A DNA stretch of 64,000 bases from Chloroflexota bacterium (GTDB taxonomy: Bacteria > Chloroflexota > Anaerolineae > Anaerolineales > Villigracilaceae): assembly GCA_016234495.1 (NCBI GenBank), contig JACRBI010000043.1, positions 124,001-188,000 of the forward strand. Reading direction: 5' to 3'. Below are positions 1,564 to 23,274 of the stretch, piece by piece. A model generated the notes under the pieces. It was not told the DNA's origin. It saw nothing but the letters and a program-made list of their open reading frames with translations, and made no database searches. A program made the translations under genes and the position numbers. Positions within the stretch are counted from its first letter, which is position 1; every line of letters starts with the position of its first letter.

Positions 1564-3600
1564 TTAATCCTCCAAAATCAGCGTGCCCATCACAGACACG
1601 TCGTAACCCATCAGGTTGGATACTGCGTCTCGAAATGCCGAATCAGCCAGCAGGTCGAAGAGAGGCGCGAGCAGGGTATCATCCGTAAAAATTTTTGGAA
1701 TCACCAGATCATAACGTTCCTGAAAAAGCGGGATGAAATCCAAATCCAAGGCCTGCGCGGCGGCGGCAATTCCAAGCCCGCAGTCGGCGCGTCCAGATGC
1801 GATGGCGGCGGCGACTCCGAGATGGGTATATTCTTCACGAGTATAGCCGATTATGGAATCGGCAGACATTGCCAACGCGTTGAGATGATAATCGAGCAGG
1901 ACGCGCGTGCCTGCCCCGCGCTGTCGGTTCACAAACTGGACCTGCGGCCTGCTGAGGTCTCCCAAACTTTTGATTCCCTTTGGGTTTCCCTGCTTAACCA
2001 AAAGCCCCTGGTCACGCCCAACAAGAGAGATAACTTTTACGGGAATGTCCGGCATGTACTGGCGGATGTATGAAATGTTGTACTCGCCTGTTGCAGGGTC
2101 AAGCAGATGCGAGCCGGCCAGATGAGCCTCGCCGCGCCGCAGCGCGATCAGCCCGCCCTGCGAACCGACATTCGCGGAAGCAAAACGGCGATCATGCTCC
2201 GCGAGAAATTGCGCGAGCAAGTCAAGCGTGAGGTCGTGCGAGCCGATGCAAAAAATCGTTTTTTCGATTTCTGCTTTACTGCGATACAAATGAACTTTGA
2301 CTTGTTCGCCGGCATCCAGCCCTTGTGTGCCGCTTGGGATTAAAGCAAGTCCATCGGCTTGCACCAGCGAAGTGATGACTCCCGCTCCGCGTGACAGCGG
2401 CGCGGCGAGAAGTTTATCGCCAACCTTGCCGACAGCCACCCGCACAAAATCATCGTCACCCGCGGGCGAGACGATTTTGCGCGTGAGTGTGGCTGTCTCT
2501 GTCGGAAGTTGATTCGGCCTGCGTCCCAGCCATTTGGCGATGAGGGACTCGACGAAGATATCCACTGTCAGCGCGGCAGAGACCGGGTAACCGGGAACGC
2601 CAATGATAGGAATTAGGAATGAGGGATGAGGAATTAAGTTGCCTGCCTCCTCATTCCTAATCCCTAATTCCTTTTTTACCATTCCCAAAATTACCGGGTG
2701 CCCCGGTCTTACCGCCACTCCATGAACCAACAACGTGCCGAGTTTTTCAACCACCTTCGCAGAAAAATCTTCCGCTCCAGCGGAGGAGCCTGCGTTCAAC
2801 AAAATAAGATCGTGCGTTTGCGCTGCTTCCCGCACGCGCTCACAGATTAAATAAAAGTCATCTTTGGTGATCGGATACCGAGTCGGCTCGGCGCCCATCG
2901 CCTTGACCTGCGCCGCCATCACCAGCGAATTGTATTCGAGGATGTCGCCGGATTTAAGTTTGCTACCAATCGGGACAAGTTCAGTCCCAGTCGGCAGAAT
3001 TGCAATTTTCGGTTTCCGGGCAACTTTTATTTCCTGATGACCTGAAGCCGCGATGGCGCCCAAGTCCGCGGGGCGCAGGGTGTGACCTGTCGGCAAGACC
3101 AACTGCGTGGCGACAATATCCTCTCCCAGCGGGCGGACATGACTCCACGGCGCAACTGCGGCGCGTATCCTGACCGAGGACGGTTGACGAATGGCTGAGG
3201 TGATTTCGCCATTTTCATCCAGCGATTCAACATTCTCGATCGGGATGACGGCATTCGCCCAATCCGGCAGCGGGTCGCCGGTGTCTACATATTTAGTAAT
3301 TGGTGATTGGTGATTGGGAATTGGCGATTTTTCACCCGTCACAAATAACTGTATCGGAGAGGAAGGCTGTGCGCCGTTTGTATTTTCCGCAACGACTGCG
3401 AACCCGTCCATGGCCGAGGCGTGATAATGCGGCGACGAAACTTTCGCCCATATTGGTTCGGCAGTGACCCGTCCCAGCGCGTTTTCATCGAGCGGAATCG
3501 ATTCAACGCCAAGCACGCGCCAAAGGCCAGCCTCCTGCAAGGCTTCGCGCAAACGTGACCGCGCCTGATAAAGCGGGATATCGTGAAGGTAGACGGACAT
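1564..3600 (-). CDS. moeA: MoeA-type molybdopterin molybdenumtransferase fused to a PBP-like domain
   Basis: 678 residues. Residues 1 to about 440 are MoeA, which inserts molybdate (or tungstate) into adenylylated molybdopterin: SAMDGFAV near residue 65, the GSSAG loop near 270, VRPGHPV and GVPGYPVSA. The remaining 230 residues are a periplasmic-binding-protein-like domain (PBP_like/LysR-substrate type; SHLLDPATGEYN, GAGTRVLLD), a known fusion thought to sense or bind molybdate. The product would serve the molybdo-formate dehydrogenase at 15.8-18.1 kb. Two segments look like inserted repeats: residues about 90-102 (NHQSPIT) and about 310-331. Start ATG is 3 bp after the stop of the upstream gene, so it is probably cotranscribed. 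Confidence 0.92.
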   Translation of the reverse strand: MSVYLHDIPLYQARSRLREALQEAGLWRVLGVESIPLDENALGRVTAEPIWAKVSSPHYHASAMDGFAVVAENTNGAQPSSPIQLFVTGEKSPIPNHQSPITKYVDTGDPLPDWANAVIPIENVESLDENGEITSAIRQPSSVRIRAAVAPWSHVRPLGEDIVATQLVLPTGHTLRPADLGAIAASGHQEIKVARKPKIAILPTGTELVPIGSKLKSGDILEYNSLVMAAQVKAMGAEPTRYPITKDDFYLICERVREAAQTHDLILLNAGSSAGAEDFSAKVVEKLGTLLVHGVAVRPGHPVILGMVKKELGIRNEEAGNLIPHPSFLIPIIGVPGYPVSAALTVDIFVESLIAKWLGRRPNQLPTETATLTRKIVSPAGDDDFVRVAVGKVGDKLLAAPLSRGAGVITSLVQADGLALIPSGTQGLDAGEQVKVHLYRSKAEIEKTIFCIGSHDLTLDLLAQFLAEHDRRFASANVGSQGGLIALRRGEAHLAGSHLLDPATGEYNISYIRQYMPDIPVKVISLVGRDQGLLVKQGNPKGIKSLGDLSRPQVQFVNRQRGAGTRVLLDYHLNALAMSADSIIGYTREEYTHLGVAAAIASGRADCGLGIAAAAQALDLDFIPLFQERYDLVIPKIFTDDTLLAPLFDLLADSAFRDAVSNLMGYDVSVMGTLILED
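2609..2672. repeat. In-frame palindromic repeat inside moeA (AATTAGGA family)
   Basis: Imperfect inverted repeat built from words such as GGAATTAGG and AATGAGG on one arm and CCTCATTCC and CCTAATTCC on the other. It encodes residues of about 310-331 of MoeA, between the VRPGHPV and GVPGYPVSA motifs, which are normally close together, so it behaves as an inserted, in-frame element. Confidence 0.7.
3290..3328. repeat. In-frame GATTGGTGATTGG repeat inside moeA
   Basis: Tandem words TTGGTGATTGG and GATTGGGAATTGG coding for PNHQSPIT (residues about 90-102) in the N-terminal part of MoeA. This word family is common between genes in many bacteria; here it stays in frame. Confidence 0.65.
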
Positions 3601-15791: not shown

Positions 15792-15840
15792 TAAATCAAG
15801 AGCCTCCGAGATTTTTATAATCTCGGAGGCTCTTGATTTA
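15792..15840. terminator. Long terminator hairpin overlapping the fdhA stop codon
   Basis: A perfect 22-bp stem (TAAATCAAGAGCC...) with a 5-nt loop. The fdhA stop codon lies inside its right arm, so the fdhA mRNA ends within the hairpin, and it can also stop plus-strand transcription from the PIN module. Confidence 0.85.
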
Positions 15841-18075
15841 ATATCTGCCGCGATTCACAACCGCGTTGGGGTTCCCTAGGTCCTTTTTTCGCGCGGGGAA
15901 AACCTGCACCGCGCAGGCTTTGAACTCGGGAATTTTCGCCTGCGGGTCAAGCGCATCGTTGGTCAGTAAATTCGCGGCGGCTTCGACGAAGTGGAAGGGG
16001 ATGAAGACTACGCCAACGGATGTCTTTTCGGTGACCGTGACTCGCAAAACAACTTCACCGCGTCTGGACTTAACTGTGACAGGGTCGCCGTTTCGAATGC
16101 CGTGAATCTCCGCGTCAGCCGGGTGGACTTCCACGCGGGCTTCGGGGTAGGCCTCATTCAAGGATGAGTTGCGCGTCATCGAACCGCCGTGCCAATGTTC
16201 GAGCACGCGGCCAGTGGTGAGGATGAACGGAAATTCATCGTCAACCGATTCCATCGCGGGGACGTAATCCAGCGGGTGAAACTTGCCCCGTCCGCGCGGG
16301 AAGGATTCTGTAAAAAGTGTCGGTGTGCCGGGGTGAGTCAGAGTCGGCACGGGGTAGATCAAGCCAAGTTTAACAATGCGCTCGTAAGTGATGCCGGCAT
16401 AATCTGGATTCACGCTGCCCATCTCGCGCAGAATCTCTTCGGGGTGAGAATACTTCCAGTACGCTGAATCAACTCCCAGTTTGGTTTCGATGCGCTGGGC
16501 TACATCGCAGATGATCTGCCAGTCCACGCGGGCTTGTCCGCGCGGGGCATGGGCGGCTCTCACTCTTTGCACGCGGCGGTCTGTGTTGGAGAAAGTCCCA
16601 TCTTTTTCGGCGAAGGGAGTGGCAGGCAGGAAGACATCCGCAAAGGCCGCGGACTCGGTCATGAAAATATCCTGCGCCACGAGGAACTCCAACTGCTCCA
16701 TGTGCTTGCGCGTCTCGTTGAGATTCGGCTCGGACATCATCGGGTTCTCGCCCATTATGTACAGCGCTCGAATTCCTCCTTCGTGGGCGTGACTTAAAAT
16801 TTCGGTGGTGGTAAGACCAAGTTTAAGACTCAGCCCGCCGGGTTCGATGTTCCAGGCCTTCTCCCATTTGGTGCGGTTGTCGGGATTGTCCACGCGCATG
16901 TAGCCGGGATAATGAAAAGGCATGCAACCCATGTCGCTCGCGCCTTGCACGTTGTTTTGTCCGCGCAGTGGATTCAGTCCCGTGCCTTCGCGCCCGATGT
17001 GCCCCGTAAGGAAAGCAAGGTTGATCAACGCCAGCGCGGACGCGGTTCCATGCGAAAGCTGCGAGATGCCCATGCCCCAATAAATGGCGGCTTTCTTCGC
17101 GGTGGCGTACATGCGCGCCGCCTTGCGAATATCCTCGGCAGGCACGCCTGAAATTTCCTCGGCATATTCGGGTGTGAATTTATCCAGCGACTCGATAAAG
17201 TCGTTGAAGCCTTCGGTGCGGTTCTGGATAAACTCGGGGTTGGTCAATCCCTCTTTGAGGATGACCTGCGCCATCGCAGAGAAGACAGGCACATTGGTGC
17301 CGGGCTTGAGCGGAAGCCACATCTCGGCAAAGTCCACCAGCTCGATTCTGCGCGGGTCAATGACGATCATCTTCGCGCCGTGTTGACGGACCGCCTCTTT
17401 CATCTGCAAAGCAATGATGGGATGATTCTCGCTGGTGTTGGAACCTGTGACAATGAACACGTCATTTTGAATCACCTGCGAGGCAGTGTTGCTCATGGCA
17501 GAAGAACCCGTCGCCTGTTGGAGCGCAACCACTGAACCCGCGTGGCACAGGCGCGTGCAGTGATCCACGTTATTGGTGCGGAAGATGGCGCGGTACATTT
17601 TTTGTAAAAGATAATTGTCTTCATTGGTGGCTTTGGCACAGGCATAGACCGCCATCGCGTCCGAGCCGTCACGTTTGTAAATGCGGACAAGGTTTTCGGC
17701 GGTGATGTTTAGTGCGGTGTCCCAATCGGTTTCGACCCAATCCCAGGGAGTTGAGGGATTAGTGATTAGATAATTAGGAATTAGGGAGTTCCTGCCTAAT
17801 TCGGGCGCGTCTTTCCTATTTCCTAATCCCTGATTACCTATTTCCTTATTACCTTCCAGTAAATATCGCCTCACCATCGGCGTGGTCACCCGTTTGGGAT
17901 GATAGACATAGTCATAGCCGAAGCGTCCCTTCACGCATAAATTTCCGTGGTTGACGGGCGAGTCAAACGGCGAGGTCACTTTGAAGATATGCTCATCTTT
18001 AACATGTAACTGTAAATTACATCCCACTCCGCAATACGGGCAGGTTGTAGTGACAATTCGGTCTGGTTTGATCAT
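15838..18075 (-). CDS. fdhA: Formate dehydrogenase catalytic subunit (Cys form)
   Basis: 745 residues, molybdopterin oxidoreductase family. An N-terminal [4Fe-4S] site is formed by C12, C15, C19 and C47. The residue equivalent to Sec140 of E. coli FdhF is C177, followed by H178 (HCTRLCHAGS), so this is a cysteine enzyme. Later motifs: GSNTSENHP, NPLRGQNNVQGASDMG, GENPMMSEP and TGRVLEHWHGGSMTR. Oxidises formate, or reduces CO2, at a Mo/W-bisMGD centre. Residues about 72-107 look like an inserted repeat. It is last in the operon nuoEF, DUF4173, hoxU-like, EamA, fdhA, which together make a soluble NAD-linked complex. Confidence 0.93.
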   Translation of the reverse strand: MIKPDRIVTTTCPYCGVGCNLQLHVKDEHIFKVTSPFDSPVNHGNLCVKGRFGYDYVYHPKRVTTPMVRRYLLEGNKEIGNQGLGNRKDAPELGRNSLIPNYLITNPSTPWDWVETDWDTALNITAENLVRIYKRDGSDAMAVYACAKATNEDNYLLQKMYRAIFRTNNVDHCTRLCHAGSVVALQQATGSSAMSNTASQVIQNDVFIVTGSNTSENHPIIALQMKEAVRQHGAKMIVIDPRRIELVDFAEMWLPLKPGTNVPVFSAMAQVILKEGLTNPEFIQNRTEGFNDFIESLDKFTPEYAEEISGVPAEDIRKAARMYATAKKAAIYWGMGISQLSHGTASALALINLAFLTGHIGREGTGLNPLRGQNNVQGASDMGCMPFHYPGYMRVDNPDNRTKWEKAWNIEPGGLSLKLGLTTTEILSHAHEGGIRALYIMGENPMMSEPNLNETRKHMEQLEFLVAQDIFMTESAAFADVFLPATPFAEKDGTFSNTDRRVQRVRAAHAPRGQARVDWQIICDVAQRIETKLGVDSAYWKYSHPEEILREMGSVNPDYAGITYERIVKLGLIYPVPTLTHPGTPTLFTESFPRGRGKFHPLDYVPAMESVDDEFPFILTTGRVLEHWHGGSMTRNSSLNEAYPEARVEVHPADAEIHGIRNGDPVTVKSRRGEVVLRVTVTEKTSVGVVFIPFHFVEAAANLLTNDALDPQAKIPEFKACAVQVFPARKKDLGNPNAVVNRGRY
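17757..17860. repeat. In-frame AATTAGG-type palindromic repeat inside fdhA
   Basis: Words TAATTAGGAATTAGGGA on one side and TTTCCTAATCCCTGATTACC on the other form an imperfect hairpin. They encode about 35 extra residues (NQGLGNRKDAP...IPNYLITNP) between VTTPMVRR and WDWVETDWD, which are adjacent in ordinary family members. Confidence 0.75.
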
Positions 18076-18089
18076 GGAACTCCTTTGGC

Positions 18090-18161
18090 TGAAAGCTGCA
18101 GGTTGCAGGTCAAAAGCCGAACCTTCAACCTTTAAACCTTCCGACCTTCAAACCTTTCAAC
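18090..18161. repeat. Low-complexity ACCTTCAAACCTT repeat between EamA gene and fdhA
   Basis: Tandem-like words GCAGGTTGCAGGTC and CAACCTTTAAACCTTCCGACC fill the 86-bp gap. The same word family appears inside the 3' end of nuoEF at 21480-21625. Confidence 0.6.
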
Positions 18162-18995
18162 TTATATCGTAATTAAAACAATCGCGATCAACGCCAGCGC
18201 AATGCCAAGCATTTGTACCCGCGAAATTCTTTCCTTCAAAACAAACCATGCCAGCACCACGGTCGAGCCGGGGTAGAGCGAGCCAAGTACCGCGGCCACA
18301 TCCATGCGCCCGGTCTGAGCCGAGAGGACATAAAAGGCGTTGCCTGCCGTATCCATCACACTGCTCATCAAGATCGCAAAAAGACTCTCCCGCTTGGGGA
18401 ACCAGTCCTGCCTTGTGATAATCGAATACAGCAACAGGCTTGAGATGGAAACAATTCGCACAGCCACCAGCGGCCAGAGGATCGATTCACTGCTGGCATA
18501 ATGGATAAAGATGAAAAATCCGCCAAAAGCCAGACCGGCAATCACCGGGAGAATCAGCGAACGCAGGTCAGACCTCAACCCAACTCCGCCAGAGACCAGC
18601 CACACCGCAACAAGCGCGAGCGCAAAGCCGATGATCGTCAGCCAGCCGACCAGCCCATCGGTAATAAACCCGACCATCACCGGCAGAGAGGCTGTCACCA
18701 AAGCAGAGACCGGAGCCGCAATGCTCATCTGTCCCGATGCAAGGGCGCGGTACAACAGGGTCAGGCCGACGCCGCCGCAGATGCCTGCCAGCCCGCCGAG
18801 AATCCAATCTTGAAATTGAGGAACGGGTTCGCCGAAGAATAACGCCAGAGCAAGCAATAAAAACAAACTGATCACATGCGCCACGATCACCACGCCATAC
18901 GGGTTCGAGCGCTTGACCGCCATGCCGCCGCTAAAATCGCCCGCGCCCCATGTGAGCGCTGAAATCAACCCATAAACTACAGATGTAAACGGCAT
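18162..18995 (-). CDS. EamA-family (DMT) transporter
   Basis: 277 residues, ten predicted transmembrane helices in two EamA repeats, starting [24 protein letters not shown]. The ATG overlaps the stop of the HoxU-like gene by one base (TAATG), so it is translated with the formate dehydrogenase subunits. DMT family members export amino acids, nucleotide sugars or other metabolites; the substrate cannot be read from sequence. Its position inside the fdh operon is unusual. Confidence 0.88.
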
Positions 18996-19687
18996 TATTT
19001 TCTCTTCTTACGCCCGCTGTTCAACACGGAAATTTCCTGCGCCGACATACCCTGTTCCAGCAAAAATTCACGCTTCGGTTTCAGCGCGCCAGTCGGGCAA
19101 ACCGCAACGCATTGTCCGCAAAGCACGCAGCTTGTTTCGGGAATCTTTTTATCAAAGAACGTGCCGATCTGTGTTTCAAATCCGCGGCCATCGAAGTTGA
19201 TCGCAAAAGTATATTGCGCATCCTCCGCGCAGACCTGCACACAACGCCAGCACAACAGGCACTTCGAATAATCGCGCACATACATCGGGTTGTCATCCTT
19301 CACCTGCGACTCCCTGCGCTGGGCATCGGGAAAGCGGCTGGATGACGCACCGTACTCGTACATCATGTGCTGGATCTCGGTCGACTCAGACAAATCCATC
19401 GTGGAAGCAAGCATCTCCAAAATGGTTCGGCGCGCGCGGATGACTTTCTCGCTTCGCGTCTGGACCTTCATGCCTGCTCCTGCCCTGACGATGCAGCTCG
19501 GCTGGAGCACCCTCTGCCCCTCCACCTCGACGACGCAGATTCGGCACAGGGCATTGGCTGTGGTCGCCTCGTGGAAGCAGATGGTGGGGATGTCGATTCC
19601 ATTCTCACGGGCGACATCGAGAAGAATGGCGCCCTGTTCGGCTTCAACTTGCTGCCCATCAATAGTCAAAATAATTTGATTTGTCAT
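18995..19687 (-). CDS. HoxU/NuoG-N-type iron-sulfur subunit of NAD-linked formate dehydrogenase
   Basis: 230 residues. An N-terminal [2Fe-2S] domain has C37, C48, C51 and C65; a His-Cys [4Fe-4S] linker domain spans about 80-120; two ferredoxin-type clusters use C143/146/149/153 and C187/190/193/197 ([11 protein letters not shown] and [12 protein letters not shown]). It should wire electrons between the molybdenum subunit and the NuoEF flavin. Starts 3 bp after the DUF4173 gene and overlaps the EamA gene, in the middle of the operon. Confidence 0.92.
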
Positions 19688-19690
19688 TTA

Positions 19691-21424
19691 TCATTCCTCA
19701 TAACTACTGGCGCGGTACTGGCAGTCATAAAGAGAGCCGTCAGGCGCTTTTATCCGAATCGGCCATCCATTCAGTCTGATTACATATCCAGCCAAATAAG
19801 GCCGAATTTTTGCCAATACCTGATGAGCCTGCCAGCGCGACAAGTTGAAGGATCGCCAATCATAGGGAAATGTAGATGGAGAATCTTCGAAATATTTATA
19901 GCAAGCGAGAATTGCGCCCACCCCCTCGCGAGTTTCCTCCGGCAGTGAAGGCGAGAGAAACTCTTCCACCAGAGCAGGAATGGCGTCTGTGGATAACGAT
20001 GACAAGTGGGGAACATTCAAATTCTTTCCATGCCATGCGCGAAAAATATTATGTTTTACAATCGCTGCATCTAGGTTAAAAAGGGCAAGTGACACGGCAA
20101 AGCCAAACGATGCCAATACAATCGCAAACGCAAAGTGCTTTTCAAGACGAGCCATCTCAAGAATCGCCACTGCAATAAACAATAAAACCAACCAGATGAG
20201 GAGGATACGAGGGTAGAGGCGCAAGCGCGAGAAACCATGCCAGTCAATTGCCATAGATATTCGCTGATATGCCGAAGCCAAAATAATCAACACAAGCGCT
20301 ACAAGCAGGATGTTGAGTCCCGTGTAGATTCTCTTTTGCAATTCACTTTCCCGCCGGGTAAGGCCGCTCAAACTCAGTATTAAAGCAAGGCTGATGAAAG
20401 CCACCGTCACTAATTCATTGAAGCCGCGCCGCGCGTATTGAGAATAGGTATACCCGGCAACGCCTATATTTATTTCTCCGCCGAATAAATATTGAAACTG
20501 CACCAAAACAAACGCGGCAAAGAGAATGGAAACGCTCGCAAGAATGACTGTGCTCTCTGTGAAACCCACAAAAGGTTTAATTAACGGATTGACCATCCCA
20601 GTCGCTTTTCCATCATCACTCCGCATAGCGCTGTGCAGGATAGTGCCTGCAAACAAATAAGAAAAGCCAAGAATCAGGATAAAACGCTGAATATTCTCGT
20701 TGATTTTTTCAGCGGTAAACTCTTCAAAGAATTTATCTAATTTCTGATTGAAAACCAAATCAGCCGAGGCTAGTATTGAGCCTAGGCAAAAAACGATCGG
20801 CAAGGCAATAATTAATCCCCGCAGAACTCCCCATACAGGGGATTTTTTTATGTCAACACCCCGTTCCAATTGCTCCCTTTTTACCTGACGGATAAATCCC
20901 AAAGGCCGGGCAAACATGTCCCCAAAGAATTGAAAGAATTTATTAAAATAATTCGAAAGCCCGTAGAAATACCAACGACCGCCCAAATAAGTTACTGAAA
21001 ACAATCCGATTGAGAATAACGAAAAAGCATAAGCGAGGAAGATCGTCAGGGGTTCCTGACGTAAAAAAGCAACAGTAATAAAAAACACGAACAGGATGAT
21101 TAAAACCAAGCTCGTTAACGCAGGTTTATAACCATCAGAAATCAACACATATAATCCGCCAATTAAACATAGCATTAAGAAAATTGCATAGTTGATTCCA
21201 GAAAGTTGATCCCAAAACAGGTAATCAAACAAGATGCCTAGTGCAATGGCAACAAGGCCAAGGCGAAGAGGGGTAATTCGTATTTTTTCCATAACCGCCT
21301 TTCCTTCTGGCGGGCTAACTGCCTCCTGTTTTATAACTAATGGCGACACAGAAGACTCTTCCTGAATGGGTTTTTTAGTCGCCTTTGACTTGCTCTTTAT
21401 GGTTGTACTTTTTTTTGGAGTCAT
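19691..21424 (-). CDS. DUF4173 (DUF4153-like) polytopic membrane protein
   Basis: 577 residues. A basic, Lys/Thr-rich cytoplasmic N-terminus of about 45 residues precedes roughly 12 transmembrane helices. The family signature YLFGGE...[14 protein letters not shown] lies near 320-345, and a soluble C-terminal tail of about 120 residues follows. Function is unknown for the family. It begins inside the last codons of nuoEF (4-bp ATGA overlap) and ends 3 bp before the HoxU-like gene, so it is an integral part of the formate dehydrogenase operon. Confidence 0.85.
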
Positions 21425-23274
21425 CTTGCACCCTTTTTTACATCTTTATTTTTAGGCTTAATGCTGGAAGTCCCAACAGGCCTCTTCCTCGTCTTTGACA
21501 CCTTCGAAACTTTAGGCACCTTTGAGACTTTTGTCGCCTTCAAACTTTTCACCTTTGACTTTTTACCTTCAACCTTCAACTTGCGACCTTCATCCTTCAT
21601 CTTTGTGCCTTCATCCTTGAAAAGCTCCGGCCACAACTTCATCGCGGATAAAACCGCGCTCGCCGCAGTCTGCCCGAGGCCGCACAAGCTGGCGTCCGTC
21701 ATTGTCCAGCCGACATCCTGCAAGCGGATAAAGTCATCAGCCAACGCGCCCCCATTAGCTACGCGATCCAGAATTTCCGTTTGGCGCTGTGTCCCAAGTT
21801 GACAGGGATAGCACTTGCCGCAGGATTCGTGCGCGAAGAACCTGCCCAGCCGTTTCAAAACATCACGCAGATCGCGGGATTCGTTGAAGACCATCACCAC
21901 GCCGGAGCCGAGCGGCAGTCCGGCAGCACGCAAGTCTTCAAAGGTTAATTTCACGTCCAAATGGTCGGAGGTTGCAAATGCCCCTGCCGCCCCGCCAAAC
22001 AAAACCGCCTTGAGCGGCTTCCTGCCCTCAACTCCGCCGGCCATTTTCAGCAGTTCGCGCAATGTCACACCAAATGGGACTTCATACACTCCAGGCTTTT
22101 TTACATCGCCTGAAACACAAAACAGTTTCGAGCCCGGGGATTTTTCCGTGCCAATGCTGCGATATTCGGCAAAGCCTTTTGAAATAATGAGCGGCACGTT
22201 GCAAAGTGTTTCGACATTATTGATTACGGTCGGCTTGTCGAATAAACCGTTGGTTGTCGGGAAAGGCGGCTTGACACGCGGAAATCCGCGCTTGCCTTCG
22301 ATCGATTCAAACAACGCGGTCTCCTCGCCGCAGATATAAGCGCCTGCGCCGACACGAATTTCAATATCAAATTTTGCGCCGAGATAACCAGCGGCGCGCG
22401 CTTCGGTCAGCGCATTTTCCAAAACTGGGACAATGTATGGATATTCCCCGCGGATATAAATGTAGCCTTTCGTCGCGCCAATGGCATACGCTGCAATGCA
22501 CATGCCTTCAATGATCCGATGCGGGTCGTCGAGCAGCAGGACCCTGTCTTTGAAAGTTCCCGGCTCGGATTCATCTGCATTGCAAATGACATATTTTTGG
22601 TCGGCAGTTGCGTTCGCTGCGCCTTCCCATTTGACTCCGGTTGGGAACGCCGCACCGCCGCGTCCGACCAGCCCGCTGGCTTTGATTTCTGCGGTCACAT
22701 CCGCAGGATTCATGGTCAGCGCTTTTTTATACGCGGAGTAGTCGCCGTACTTCGCGAGAGTGGTTGTTTTCTTGCCGCAATTTTTGGTCAACTCGCGGAG
22801 TTGACCGTAGACCATGGATCGTGGACGGTCTGTGTGAATTTTTCCATTCCCAACCTTCCATCGTCCATTGTCCGCAGTCCAGACGGCTGGGGCCTGCTCG
22901 CACAACCCCAGGCATGGACTCTGCTCGATGGTGAGAGTCAGGTCAAGGGTCGCCTGACCCGCTTCCACATCATGGCGTTGGCAGAGCCGCTTCAGGAGTC
23001 CATCCGCACCTTTGAGCGCGCAAGCCTGGTCGGTGCAAACGCGGATGATTTTTTTTCCGACGGGTTCATTGTAAAACAGTGAATAGAATTCGATGACGCC
23101 ATGCACATCGGCAAGCGGCACACGCAATGACTTTGCGACTTCGGCGGCGGCCTCCTGCGGAAGCCAGCCATAAATATTTTGCGCGGCGTGAAGCGCGGGC
23201 AGCAATCCTGAACGGCCAAGTGGAATATATTTTTGAAGTTCTGTTTGCAGCGGGGTGAGGTCAATTTCAGACAT
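21421..23274 (-). CDS. Fused NuoE-NuoF (HoxF-like) NADH-binding flavoprotein
   Basis: 617 residues. A NuoE thioredoxin-like part (1 to about 165) carries the [2Fe-2S] ligands C80, C85, C121 and C125. The NuoF part has [13 protein letters not shown] (204-216) for NAD(H), the FMN site ([17 protein letters not shown], 228-243) and the [4Fe-4S] ligands C485, C488, C491 and C531. Transfers electrons between formate dehydrogenase and NAD+. Residues about 132-158 and the Lys-rich tail from 551 look like inserted repeats. It is the first gene of the operon, downstream of corA. Confidence 0.93.
21480..21625. repeat. Low-complexity repeat encoding the Lys-rich tail of NuoEF
   Basis: Runs of CCTTCAACCTTCAACTTG and CCTTCATCCTTCATC words code on the minus strand for the [11 protein letters not shown] / [13 protein letters not shown] tail (residues 551-598), which is absent from ordinary NuoF proteins. 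Confidence 0.65.
22800..22877. repeat. In-frame GGACNATGGAC-type repeat inside nuoEF
   Basis: ACCATGGATCGTGGACGGTC at one end and CCATCGTCCATTGTCCGC at the other make an imperfect palindrome. It encodes residues about 132-158 at the NuoE/NuoF junction. Confidence 0.65.

Follow-up and report, generated by a model that had tools for sequence, protein, structure and literature searches.

The fused NuoE-NuoF protein (NuoEF) of this Chloroflexota bacterium carries a C-terminal extension that, judging from its sequence, is very probably built of two modules: a linker of ~28 residues spelled by a 7-nt repeat directly after the motif LWPELF, followed by a polybasic, disordered arm of ~36 residues. 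The heptamer accounts for the first part of the tail only; the strongly basic part is not heptamer-coded and is common to related genera. It is about an even call whether this two-part extension reflects, taken as a whole, a turnover of repeat arrays at the gene end, an arm selected for its charge and a tethering role for that arm.

The window, i.e., the whole 64,000-nt stretch of DNA that was analysed, was compared with orthologues from a family-wide search that returned matches in 116 of 120 genomes and 63 best places outside its own genome. The 63 orthologue rows consist of 60 fetched from these places (G050, G059, and G068 were left out), the window itself, and two named loci with 78–80% core identity, Chloroflexi bacterium CFX4 (L038) and Anaerolineales bacterium BIN17 (L059). 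In the window, the nuoEF open reading frame (ORF) lies at 21421–23274 on the minus strand and encodes 617 aa, the predicted diaphorase subunit of a formate dehydrogenase operon. Its conserved core, defined by the orthologue alignment, comprises residues 1–548 (21631–23274, minus strand). Pfam recognizes a NuoE domain (15–135), the NuoF FMN domain, an SLBB domain, and the NADH 4Fe-4S domain and ends at residue 553, leaving about 64–69 extra residues (within 549–617) past the core or the domains. The nuoEF stop overlaps the start of a DUF4153 ORF (19691–21424, minus strand) by 4 bp (21421–21424, minus strand), and both the ORF and the overlap described in an earlier sequence-only reading of this DNA were confirmed.

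An assignment of the gene to complex I gives way to a better one. NuoEF scores 461.6 bits against TIGR01959, the complex I NuoF equivalog of NCBIfam, with a cut-off of 558.65, while the FdhA (formate dehydrogenase alpha) encoded in the same operon at 15838–18075 (minus strand) scores 785.4 bits against TIGR01591, with a cut-off of 666.25. Between the two genes lie, besides DUF4153, a HoxU/NuoG-N-like 2Fe-2S/4Fe-4S subunit (18995–19687, minus strand), identified by domain and profile matches, and an EamA transporter gene (18162–18995, minus strand) that is found within the operon in some relatives. The order nuoEF, hoxU-like, (EamA), fdhA is retained among relatives, and a HoxU-like neighbor is present in 62 of the 63 rows. 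Because NuoEF falls under the NuoF cut-off, FdhA exceeds its own, the neighbor is HoxU-like, and the gene order is kept, the operon is best read as that of an NAD-linked formate dehydrogenase rather than as part of complex I, and it contains the FdhA plus NuoG-N/HoxU-like subunit expected of such operons. The solved chains nearest to NuoEF are of the HoxF/HydB/FdsB/NuoF type, and most of the matches stop near residue 550. Among them, 6vw7_B, 6tg9_B, and 7q4v_B (NAD-dependent formate dehydrogenase beta, HydB/HoxF/NuoF) have the same core as the window protein, with sequence matches that end ahead of the tail. NuoE is fused in front in NuoEF, as it is in a few of the formate dehydrogenase beta/HydB/HoxF/NuoF chains.

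The division of the tail emerges from its periodicity, measured as nucleotide self-matches at fixed lags and compared with codon shuffles. Over the first 75 nt past PELF, the window tail matches itself at lag 7 at 67.6% of positions versus 31.9% in the shuffles (z 6.9, 0/2000). This heptamer module (21532–21615, minus strand) encodes D554–T581 in 12 consecutive units: GATGAAG, GCACAAA, GATGAAG, GATGAAG, GTCGCAA, GTTGAAG, GTTGAAG, GTAAAAA, GTCAAAG, GTGAAAA, GTTTGAA, and GGCGACA. TRF likewise reports 7- to 21-nt arrays at 21499–21618, those of 7 and 21 nt at 21551–21618. In the rest of the window tail (21421–21531), the lag test found no 7-nt periodicity over codon shuffles. Residues 582–594 (21493–21531, minus strand) are instead encoded by a codon-compatible 9-nt repeat, with a lag-9 value of 0.432 versus 0.298 over codons 26–65 of the tail (reached by 7/2000 shuffles), and residues 595–617 (21424–21492, minus strand) form a unique basic end. 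A repeat of period 7 does not keep step with the reading frame, which points to a process at the DNA level; lags of 9 and 15 are whole numbers of codons. Charge is distributed in the same uneven way: the tail has a net charge of +19 past PELF, +3 in the first 20 residues and +16 in the remainder. The sequence-only reading, which derived the tail from heptamer words, was thus right that a 7-nt repeat is translated at the C-terminus, but this repeat covers D554–T581 only and the tail continues to 21421. That the repeat makes up the entire basic tail does not hold, as the heptamer part amounts to 28 residues of modest charge and most of the charge lies in the part without 7-nt periodicity.

The same division recurs in the relatives. 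A basic, mostly lysine-rich tail of 49–101 residues after residue 548 is present in 21 of the 63 rows (window included), spread over genera g1, g2, g5, g6, and g8 of one Anaerolineales-like family, and the remaining 42 proteins end 2–16 residues past the core. Pooled over the 21 tails, the first 75 nt past PELF show a lag-7 value of 0.438 versus 0.301 in codon shuffles (z 11.5, 0/500); the rest shows no lag-7 excess (0.298 versus 0.302, z −0.4), and what excess it has at lags 9, 14, and 15 is small (z 2.1, 2.3, and 4.2). Lysine makes up 34% of tail residues (its lowest share, 16%, is in the g6 tail), and the composition is K, A, V, S, T, and little else, with aromatics nearly absent and no Cys. 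Beyond the family, 78 distant loci were collected, of which one (L070) runs off its contig; among the 77 that can be read, none has a polybasic tail, and the highest net charge is +6. The statement that such a tail is absent from ordinary NuoF therefore stands for distant species, for which a conserved tail had been named as the contrary finding, but not for the relatives, where 20 of the 62 other rows, in five genera, have one.

Given a repeat at the gene end, the whole tail could be translated junk: the array ran through an old stop, the product was tolerated at a free C-terminus, and gains and losses since have been neutral. A frame free of stops is no argument either way, being true by the definition of a tail. 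Consistent with junk are a heptamer period that does not match the codon length, the disorder of the tail, the 42 of 63 rows that lack one, and the lability of the trait, for which the core tree requires 10 changes of state (7 or more of them forced by well-supported branches, versus 17.8 in all with shuffled labels). This lability implies that many lineages can do without the tail. The distal arm, however, is poorly accounted for. It lacks the 7-nt periodicity, and its net charge is kept between +11 and +35 in 21 of 21 tails, whereas the first 20 residues past PELF range from −1 to +7. Eight of the 21 tails, in genera g1 and g5, end in the motif [RH]K[STP][ATSV][KS][KR][RKG], which shuffled distal parts yield at most once, none of 5000 shuffles reaching eight, with the proviso that the motif was picked post hoc, the tails having already been seen; the window C-terminus does not have it. 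In the last four tail residues, K or R occupies 59 of 84 positions versus 36.9 in shuffles. In the sister pair G063/G112, with cores that are 96.1% identical, the gaps that separate the tails ahead of the stop are 3 and 9 nt long, which speaks for a constraint on the frame; the gap argument uses this one close pair, other pairs being too far apart for safe alignment of the tails. Such tails are also rare: in the 390 kb sampled from its own genome, 284 proteins of 150 aa or more were called, and the window protein alone has at least 12 K in its last 40 residues, which rules out lysine-rich tails as a genome-wide habit. Junk throughout is hence an unlikely account of the tail. In view of the shared C-terminal motif, inheritance and selection seem to have shaped the distal tail, despite some 10 gains or losses.

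Transfer of the tail together with the neighboring hoxU was also considered and rejected, the tail label taking 10 changes on the hoxU tree as well (62 rows, few well-supported branches). Two side observations concern the same region. L156 (G106) and L128 (G118) have a short nuoEF end in common and sister hoxU genes (support 99) yet lie on different nuoEF branches, a pattern that suggests one recombination event. In L135 (G112), repeats of ACGCTAA, which may be a target-site duplication, stand on both sides of a palindrome-bearing insert past the nuoEF stop.

Whether or not a tail is present, the junction after the core is a site of heptamer arrays. Arrays, scored where 14 or more of 20 positions match at period 7 within 120 nt past the core, occur in 27 of the 63 rows (11 of 21 with a tail and 16 of 42 without) versus 3.7% of core windows. 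Periods of 5, 6, 10, and 11 give 0 or 1, and periods of 8 and 9 give 5 and 6. The heptamer words at the junction vary from genome to genome, and in several short rows the array sits at the stop codon. From its sequence, a perfect GTTGAAG array places a TGA in every frame within seven codons, so that it terminates the protein unless it has decayed.

Arrays at this position may act on the RNA instead. Inverted arrays between nuoEF and hoxU could form intercistronic hairpins that affect mRNA stability or coupling, the tail arising as a side effect when one arm is kept or lost. Arrays do face each other across or past the stop in some rows (e.g., G114, G017, and G087), and 13 of the 42 short rows fold with z < −2 versus 2 of 42 core controls. 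A conserved hairpin at the junction is nevertheless not general: the mean fold z is just −1.09 for short rows and, in tail rows, −0.84 for the region of the stop. Arm-to-arm pairing reaches z < −2.5 in 8 of the 42 short rows and in 2 of the 21 with a tail, and the lysine is left unexplained. Hairpins as the reason for the tail are accordingly given very little weight.

Under the preferred two-part reading, the gene end would be a site where 7-nt arrays repeatedly arise or turn over, with replication slippage as the likely process. An array that contains an in-frame stop would end the protein a few residues past PELF, and one without an in-frame stop would be translated into a nearly neutral linker. 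For the polybasic arm, a separate and mostly inherited history is envisaged, in which selection keeps the charge and not the exact sequence.

What the arm does may be approached through its disorder and charge. In an AlphaFold2 model built from an alignment of 16 rows (pTM 0.80), the core is mostly confident and pLDDT is <50 for residues 563–617, a result that is compatible with a functional disordered arm and with junk alike. High net positive charge and predicted disorder, the hallmarks of a lysine-rich tether, are both found in the window tail, and a disordered polybasic tether is tentatively suggested as its most likely function, with somewhat less than even probability. Such an arm might hold the NADH-handling end of a soluble formate dehydrogenase electrostatically near an acidic surface, for which acidic membrane lipids or an acidic partner protein are candidates. 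The DUF4153 membrane protein encoded next to nuoEF was rejected as that partner: its gene lies between nuoEF and the hoxU-like gene in 3 of the 63 rows, 2 of which have a tail and 1 of which does not.

A polybasic arm could also bind RNA or DNA and so anchor the enzyme at the nucleoid or on polysomes. Lysine-rich disordered tails occur on bacterial histone-like and other proteins, and the window tail resembles them in its disorder and in a composition limited to a few residues. Unlike them, it sits on a formate dehydrogenase diaphorase subunit, behind a repeat-coded linker. Pfam found no nucleic-acid domain in the protein, such binding would serve no obvious purpose in a redox subunit, and composition alone cannot separate lipids, proteins, and nucleic acids as targets. 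Nucleic-acid binding, suggested by analogy with the histone-like tails, appears improbable, and the tether to an acidic surface is retained as the working proposal.

The repeat type of the tail is found in a nearby gap and throughout a 390-kb sample of the same genome (the window plus 20 stretches, with genes from a simple ORF caller). The sequence-only reading placed the same word in the gap at 18090–18161; what lies there is a related array in the EamA/fdhA gap (18120–18161, minus strand; 8- to 16-nt arrays by TRF), but the 13-mer ACCTTCAACCTTC has a single exact copy in the window (at 21565), and the gap matches it in 12 of 13 bases at 18121. The sample contains 31 period-7 arrays versus 0 in a block shuffle, and periods of 5, 6, 8, 9, and 10 give 0–4. 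With respect to ORFs, 21 of the 31 lie fully inside, 4 at edges, and 6 between, where random placement expects 27.4 inside. Eight arrays are within 40 nt of a gene 3′ end versus 2.8 expected (3/500), and no excess was seen at 5′ ends for the 31 arrays of the sample. Array density per Mb is 79.4 in this sample, 100.8 in the family loci, and 25.7 in 68 loci of other phyla, from which it follows that period 7 is not restricted to the Anaerolineales-like family.

Enzyme genes across the family host such arrays. All 10 of the array-bearing ORFs taken into a Pfam scan encode proteins with Pfam domains, AroA, AroE, AlaRS, E2 acyltransferase, MoeA, and P-type ATPase among them. FdhA contains a hypervariable loop made of 7-nt arrays (residues 70–110; 17746–17868, minus strand) that spans 26–51 aa and differs in sequence between genomes; across the 32 of 63 rows that fit the loop pattern, its DNA has a lag-7 value of 0.377 versus 0.251 (z 17.5). 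Among 21 AroE loci, out of 25 places found, array sites are shared across the genus and their length and word vary. Individual cases include a shikimate dehydrogenase gene with three period-7 arrays (L183:15822–16742) and, in the window, a MoeA-PBP fusion gene (1564–3600) with two (2605–2636 and 3289–3329). A nuoEF paralogue (L190:4192–5934) and its neighbor (L190:5980–7092) both contain arrays, that of the neighbor in the same loop as in FdhA. The AlaRS array of the window genome was ruled out as a length insertion, since it aligns gap-free to relatives; AlaRS of G108 and G122 have array-like inserts at other positions.

These observations invite a broader and more speculative account, which we regard as possible though doubtful. 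Slippage at 7 nt in the Anaerolineales-like family may keep writing arrays incommensurate with the reading frame into enzyme genes, thereby repeatedly rebuilding permissive loops and gene ends. In nuoEF, an array would have removed the stop and given rise to a linker, behind which a functional polybasic arm grew that was kept, lost, and regained across genera. If this is true, the NuoEF tail is a new protein segment born from a stutter of the DNA and caught mid-process. The period of the in-gene arrays, which cannot match codons, marks a process acting on the DNA rather than selection on the protein, and the family thereby offers a chance to follow the birth of loops and tails and to learn which of them persist. 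NuoEF also cautions against taking one repeat as the cause of an entire tail.

Searches of the open-access literature turned up no study of heptamer arrays within Chloroflexota coding sequences and nothing pertinent to lysine-rich tails, whether of NuoF or of bacterial proteins. Heptamer repeats have been described mostly as intergenic, and here they are found inside enzyme genes of a whole family. The known heptanucleotide repeats (LSSR/STRR) include the TAACTGA repeats of Beggiatoaceae and cyanobacteria, which may overlap gene ends and provide stops (PMC4679880), and the GGGAATC repeats of Xanthomonas, with heptamers over-represented between genes in Xanthomonas and Nostoc (PMC4692102). They and the arrays of the window genome are alike in their head-to-tail 7-nt units, in their many genomic sites, here well above other periods, and in slippage as the proposed source. 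They differ in that LSSR/STRR are reported mainly between genes, whereas here the words are many and different, 21 of the 31 sampled arrays are fully inside called ORFs, and one array forms the linker of a C-terminal extension. A second precedent is provided by the Rickettsia palindromic elements, in-frame repeats within metabolic genes (PMC10969869). Palindromic arms are absent from the window array, for which no inverted partner exceeds background (best 16-mer inverted match 10/16 versus a mean of 11.3). The Rickettsia elements resemble the arrays described here in being translated in unrelated enzymes, but they constitute families of about 150 bp, whereas the arrays consist of 7-nt units of differing words.
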